Positions 183 to 17,189 of a stretch of DNA of 32,287 nucleotides are shown here, in pieces. Positions within the stretch are counted from its first letter, which is position 1, and every line of letters begins with the position of its first letter. Position numbers and translations under genes: made by a program. Location of the stretch: NCBI GenBank assembly GCA_026992315.1, contig JALXAG010000280.1:1-32287 (forward strand), read 5' to 3'. The stretch comes from Sneathiellales bacterium (GTDB taxonomy: Bacteria > Pseudomonadota > Alphaproteobacteria > Minwuiales > Minwuiaceae). Under the pieces are notes generated by a model that saw only the letters and a list, made by a program, of their open reading frames with translations, had not been told where the DNA came from and did no database searches.

Positions 183-452
183 ATCGTCTTTCTCCTCCGC
201 CATATGGCCGGAAGCACGCGGCAAAGCAGGAATTGCACATTCGCTGCAGGCGCTTCGTCCAATCGTTCGCTTCGCCTGATCCTTCCTGCCTGCCCGAAAC
301 CGGCGCGGATCAATTCCGTATGCGCCACCGGTATTCGGGCCGGTTCTGCCCTGTCCTTCATCCCGTACGGCCGCTTTCTGCTGCCTGGCCAGTTTCCTGG
401 CCGATCCTTTGGCGGCGAGATCCGGCCGACCGGATTTTAGACATATTCGTGC

Positions 453-497
453 CTAACTTGGTTAAAGTGTTAACGGTTAAGTTTAATTATTCCTTAA
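453..497. promoter_or_regulatory. Cluster of CtrA-like boxes between ctrA and fliI
   Basis: Five TTAA tetramers occur in 36 bases (462-465, 470-473, 477-480, 483-486, 494-497), preceded by CTAA at 453-456. The pair at 483-497 is a perfect TTAA-N7-TTAA, the established CtrA consensus. On the minus strand two TTAACC half-sites (475-480 and 460-465) face ctrA. The cluster lies about 300 bases upstream of the ctrA start and about 220 upstream of fliI, so it could serve CtrA autoregulation, fliI activation, or both. Binding is inferred from the motif only. Confidence 0.65.
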
Positions 498-17174: not shown

Positions 17175-17189
17175 TAAATAGGTCGTTAA
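17175..17189 (-). promoter_or_regulatory. CtrA-like box upstream of fliF
   Basis: On the minus strand the sequence reads TTAA-N7-TTTA, one mismatch from the CtrA consensus TTAA-N7-TTAA. It lies 67-81 bases upstream of the fliF start codon, a sensible place for a CtrA-activated early flagellar promoter. I could not define a -10 box. No GG-N10-GC sigma-54 signature was seen in this region. Confidence 0.5.

Follow-up and report, generated by a model that had tools for sequence, protein, structure and literature searches.

Predicted CtrA-type promoters of ctrA and fliI in the divergent ctrA-fliI gap of a Sneathiellales bacterium

The genes ctrA, for the cell-cycle regulator CtrA, and fliI lie divergently in the genome of this bacterium, and the 533-base gap between them contains a dense cluster of TTAA words. 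A sequence-only reading of this DNA had proposed that the cluster is one control region coupling both genes. The question is whether it serves both ctrA and fliI or belongs to one of them. It was addressed using the window (the whole 32,287-nucleotide stretch analysed), the remainder of the source genome and the homologous gaps of other alphaproteobacteria.

The ctrA-fliI gap and its TTAA words

The flanking divergent genes, already named as ctrA and fliI from the sequence, were confirmed by the NF045991 and TIGR03498 models, respectively. The first 60 codons of ctrA occupy positions 3-182 of the minus strand (start codon 182-180). The contig end cuts the gene, the rest of which is on contig C26; C26 and the window share 126 identical bases where they overlap. 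The C26 part, without the first 17 residues, scored 397 bits against NF045991 (cut-off 350), and a CtrA ortholog is present in the source genome, complete across the two contigs. Positions 1-6 of the window mismatch C26 while the next 126 bases match, which is probably an assembly edge. The gene for the flagellar export ATPase FliI, with a GTG start, was located at 716-2077 of the plus strand (TIGR03498, 654 bits, cut-off 587) and is followed by fliJ.

Within the gap TTAA was found at 462-465, 470-473, 477-480, 483-486 and 494-497, that is, five times within 36 bases. The first three are half-sites to which no strand was assigned, while the last two form TTAATTATTCCTTAA (483-497), the sole exact TTAA-N7-TTAA in the window, against a shuffle expectation of 0.01. 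The sequence-only reading had begun its interval at 453, where 453-456 reads CTAA rather than TTAA; its count of five TTAA in 36 bases, including one exact TTAA-N7-TTAA, stood when the positions were re-read. This density is not random: dinucleotide shuffling, done 20,000 times on the 533-base gap and 20,000 times on 160 local bases, never reached it.

Based on the spacing between box and -10 element, two putative promoters were identified. On the minus strand the exact N7 box is followed, 11 bases further, by the predicted ctrA -10 AACACT (466-471), and on the plus strand the CtrA-type box TTTACACATTCTTAA (638-652) is followed, at exactly 11 bases, by the predicted fliI -10 CAAGAT (664-669). 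This geometry would place the starts near 459 (ctrA) and 676 (fliI), with the 5' base of each box at -38. A full motif (TTAA-N7-TTAA, or its N6 form) near the -35 position was thus found at 483-497 and, as TTTA-N7-TTAA, at 638-652, both relative to predicted starts. The box and -10 of fliI (638-669) are 140 bases away from the cluster. A box and a -10 together occur three times only in the 32-kb window, all inside the ctrA-fliI gap; the third pair consists of the N7 box in the fliI direction and a -10 at spacing 12. A scan with the sigma-70 consensus gave weak plus-strand sites only, as expected for promoters without a -35 word. Elsewhere in the window, TTAACGACCTATTTA (TTAA-N7-TTTA; 17175-17189, minus strand) lies about 67 bases upstream of fliF (start 17108) and is a possible further CtrA box; the genes that follow it are fliF, fliG, fliN, a MotA-like gene, flbD, flhA and flhF.

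Across the source genome exact TTAA-N7-TTAA was found at 21 places, versus 16 for a reversed control pattern. Since this word is hardly enriched, it proves little on its own, and it is density and the comparison with relatives that carry the argument. The pattern TTAA-N1..9-TTAA-N1..9-TTAA gave seven matches, three of them inside this cluster and the other four at four separate places; its reversed control gave four. Several of the exact N7 sites are at metabolic genes or inside ORF calls. Others (L119, L123, L136) lie upstream of a Flp pilin gene, a TadE/G-like gene and a histidine kinase gene; the best models for the kinase were PdhS and DivJ, both below their cut-offs.

The gap in other alphaproteobacteria

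A total of 110 fliI loci were collected, 30 from 60 genomes and 80 from a public genome collection; 18 of the 110, judged by their titles, were non-alphaproteobacterial. Loci were kept if a gene with a ctrA-like N-terminus (>50% identity) lay divergently within 800 bases of fliI, which was the case for 70 of the 110 (22 of 30 and 48 of 80), and removal of 7 near-duplicates left 63 gaps. L040, L073 and L067 were excluded, being too far away or in the wrong orientation. L013 was below the identity threshold, yet a regulator with 46% identity is encoded divergently from fliI in that genome. The divergent ctrA-fliI order recurs widely among the alphaproteobacteria examined. One further locus, L153 (genome G043), looks as though its regulator gene had dropped out of the TTAA system: the protein encoded divergently from fliI shares only 46-47% identity with CtrA, and the 320 bases upstream of its gene contain no TTAA.

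Shuffles of the 63 non-redundant gaps gave 174.5 TTAA (sd 11.9) where 355 were observed; for nine other AT-only tetramers the z-scores lay between -4.7 and +3.0. In the 42 gaps of the second set the observed/expected ratio of TTAA was 2.00; elsewhere in the same loci, 83 non-ORF stretches gave 0.71. The distances between TTAA words in the 63 gaps peaked at 10 (27 pairs) and 11 (21 pairs), corresponding to N6 and N7, and also at 13 (21 pairs); an AATT spacing control had no comparable peak.

Motifs were fitted separately to the fliI-proximal and the ctrA-proximal 200-220 bases of the gaps. The words differed by side, TTTACC-N5-TTAA towards fliI and TnA...TTTGTTAAC towards ctrA, and both were far above mononucleotide-shuffled controls; a single motif for both sides, which was also tried, was rejected because the separate fits differ. 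The ctrA-side motif of the relatives scores poorly in the window (3.9 bits). Of the 63 gaps, 32 contained TT[AT]AC-N6-TTAA within 200 bases upstream of fliI, versus 6 on the opposite strand and a mean of 0.51 (maximum 4) in shuffles. The -10 signature nAnnnT, which is independent of the box pattern used to pick the boxes, followed the fliI box at spacing 11 in 21 of 34 cases and at spacing 12 in 12 of 34 (the other tested spacings gave 0-4 of 34). After the ctrA-type box it was found at spacing 11 in 22 of 56 cases, the other spacings giving 3-9 of 56. The A of this signature corresponds to the A at -11 described as invariant in CtrA-dependent promoters of Rhodobacter sphaeroides in the part of PMC6180460 available. 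The three-site array TTAA-N6/7-TTAA-N9-TTAA was present towards ctrA in 4 of 63 gaps (L001-L004 only) and in the reverse direction in 3 of 63, and was rejected as a general alphaproteobacterial rule.

Genomes in which the two genes no longer adjoin were found in genus g3 of the same family, where ctrA adjoins fliI in two of seven genomes and does not in the other five (L005, L007-L010). In G003, which is a single contig, ctrA and fliI are about 1.5 Mb apart; physical separation is proven for this genome only, the genes being on different contigs in the other four. In L010 (the one locus for which this was confirmed) hslU precedes fliI. In all five split genomes ctrA keeps three TTAA 56-84 bases upstream, an arrangement similar to that of the unsplit L011 and L012, although strict TTAA-N6/7-TTAA is absent from these five relocated promoters, the right half reading TTAG. 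Likewise fliI keeps TTCACCGGAAATTAA in all five, followed by the -10 signature at 11 bases. The strict fliI box was present at 2 of the 20 loci where ctrA is not adjacent and at none of the five in g3, and the pattern was relaxed post hoc to TTCAC plus the -10 check after the g3 sequences had been seen. The five split genomes are close relatives and count as about one event. CtrA-type sites are therefore conserved in orthologous promoters by density, motifs, -10 geometry and their persistence at relocated genes, and the fact that each gene keeps its own sites when apart argues that the cluster belongs to ctrA.

Control of ctrA and fliI

The TTAA words of the cluster are very probably CtrA sites, CtrA is likely to regulate its own gene, and control of fliI by CtrA is very probable as well; to this extent the sequence-only reading is upheld. 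Its proposal of one shared region coupling the two genes is not supported. Rather than a single site for both genes with neither having its own, fliI has its own box and -10, and the sites of each gene are kept when the genes are apart. We consider it probable that the cluster acts as the ctrA promoter, at which CtrA binds and regulates its own gene, and that fliI is run from its own box, so that the two genes share a regulator and a position rather than a switch.

According to this preferred reading, ctrA would be activated by CtrA bound across the -35 position, at the full TTAA-N7-TTAA on the minus strand (497-483). As CtrA builds up, the extra TTAA half-sites would be occupied as well; one of them (473-470) runs into the predicted -10 (471-466), and this would limit further transcription of ctrA. 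From the box at 638-652 and the -10 at 664-669, CtrA would switch on fliI, together with fliJ. According to the part of PMC4287350 available, Caulobacter CtrA activates from full sites at about -39 and represses from TTAA half-sites at -14. Here the full site at -38 and a TTAA whose 5' base is at -14 (470-473) belong to the same predicted start, which favours activation first and limitation at high CtrA; we infer this order from the arrangement of the sites. The TTAA at -14 may, however, merely belong to an AT-rich -10.

Further ctrA promoters may be present. The TTAA at 465-462 is at -38 of a second candidate start near 427, for which TAAAAT (434-439, minus strand) is a possible -10, so that tandem ctrA promoters are possible. 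The distance of about 280 bases between cluster and ctrA makes another promoter nearer the gene possible as well.

It is unlikely that CtrA bound to the cluster activates both genes and that the layout itself couples them. The N7 box (483-497) is nearly symmetric, a weaker -10 candidate towards fliI, GACCAT (510-515), follows it at spacing 12, and a single shared CtrA site for divergent flagellar promoters has been described for fliF2-fliL2 of R. sphaeroides in the accessible part of PMC6180460. Against this, the box and -10 of fliI are found both in the window and in many relatives, ctrA and fliI each keep a site of their own where they no longer adjoin, and by hand reading the plus-strand -10 beside the cluster is not kept at spacing 11 in L002 or L004. 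A minor contribution of the N7 box to fliI is possible, given its near-symmetry and the GACCAT candidate.

Equally improbable is that the cluster mainly represses ctrA through half-sites packed across its promoter, with activation coming from elsewhere. Four of the five TTAA fall within 462-486, spanning the predicted -10 and -35 of ctrA, and half-sites over the -10 repress in Caulobacter (PMC4287350, as far as accessible); the full N7 box nevertheless occupies the place of an activator site (-38), and the conserved spacing separates it from a -10. It is very improbable that the cluster is an AT-rich patch due to chance or that it binds a different protein: the exact N7 word is only slightly enriched in the genome and CtrA binding is itself deduced, but the gap shuffles, the genome-wide three-TTAA scan, the TTAA-specific enrichment of homologous gaps over other non-ORF stretches and the -10 geometry all speak against it.

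The ctrA leader and comparison with known systems

Transcription from the start predicted for ctrA would yield a long, GC-rich leader (183-458, minus strand), about 230 bases of which are extra: the distance from the cluster to ctrA is about 16-60 bases in near relatives (L002-L004, L011, L012 and the g3 genomes) versus about 280 here. The RNA is predicted to be strongly structured, with a fold z-score of -4.2 for the leader and of -3.7 and -4.1 for 180-459 and 180-427, respectively, whereas 40 random stretches of the window had a mean of -0.46 and a minimum of -3.06. The opposite strand of the segment also folds well (z -3.1), so that the segment may be an insertion of an inverted repeat and not a functional leader. 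The segment is present as a single copy in the genome, no Rfam family was above its gathering score (two chance-level matches were obtained), and 183-445 gave matches of only 22-34 bases, in 3 of 142 other genomes; a repeat, a known RNA or a conserved element were rejected on these grounds. Control through the leader has a precedent in Caulobacter, in which the ctrA 5' UTR is the target of the small RNA CcnA, according to the available part of PMC8959179.

In the positions of its sites the predicted ctrA promoter resembles the ctrA promoter region of Caulobacter crescentus, where a full TTAA-N7-TTAA is at -39 of P2 (-38 here) and repressing TTAA half-sites are at -14, according to what is accessible of PMC4287350. 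Unlike in Caulobacter, where ctrA has P1, P2 and P3, the activator-position and -14 sites here appear on one promoter, there is no GANTC between the cluster and ctrA (the two GANTC of the gap are both near fliI), and the predicted leader is about 245-277 bases. Several CtrA sites are also known from Sinorhizobium meliloti ctrA, there by ChIP and footprinting in the P1/P2 region; in contrast to the reading preferred here, transcriptional autoregulation was judged unimportant in that species (both from the accessible part of PMC4433202). The flgB2-fliI2 gap of R. sphaeroides is similar in having two independent CtrA sites, one per divergent flagellar promoter, and differs in that the divergent partner is flgB rather than ctrA and the half-site spacing is 6 (PMC6180460, the part available). 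Ruegeria sp. KLH11 ctrA has one half-site versus the five-site cluster here. For Rhodospirillum rubrum, an association of ctrA, cckA and chpT with flagellar genes is noted in the available part of PMC12363192. A literature search, covering titles and abstracts and few subscription papers, returned no paper treating the ctrA-fliI gap as a regulatory unit, and no claim of novelty is attached to this.

The promoter is of a known kind, well resolved by comparison, and the double site at -38 and -14 and the leader are its points of note. It is a tentative suggestion, and on balance a doubtful one, that a single promoter provides CtrA homeostasis (activation from -38, repression from -14) and that a lineage-specific structured leader of about 245-277 bases controls ctrA translation. 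If the one-promoter reading is true, a single promoter would do what Caulobacter spreads over P1, P2 and P3. With its two separable CtrA-type promoters, the divergent ctrA-fliI gap shows in a concrete and testable form how CtrA autoregulation may be built outside Caulobacter. Genomes in which fliI lies away from ctrA offer a natural test of the part that gene adjacency itself may play in coupling CtrA to flagellar assembly.
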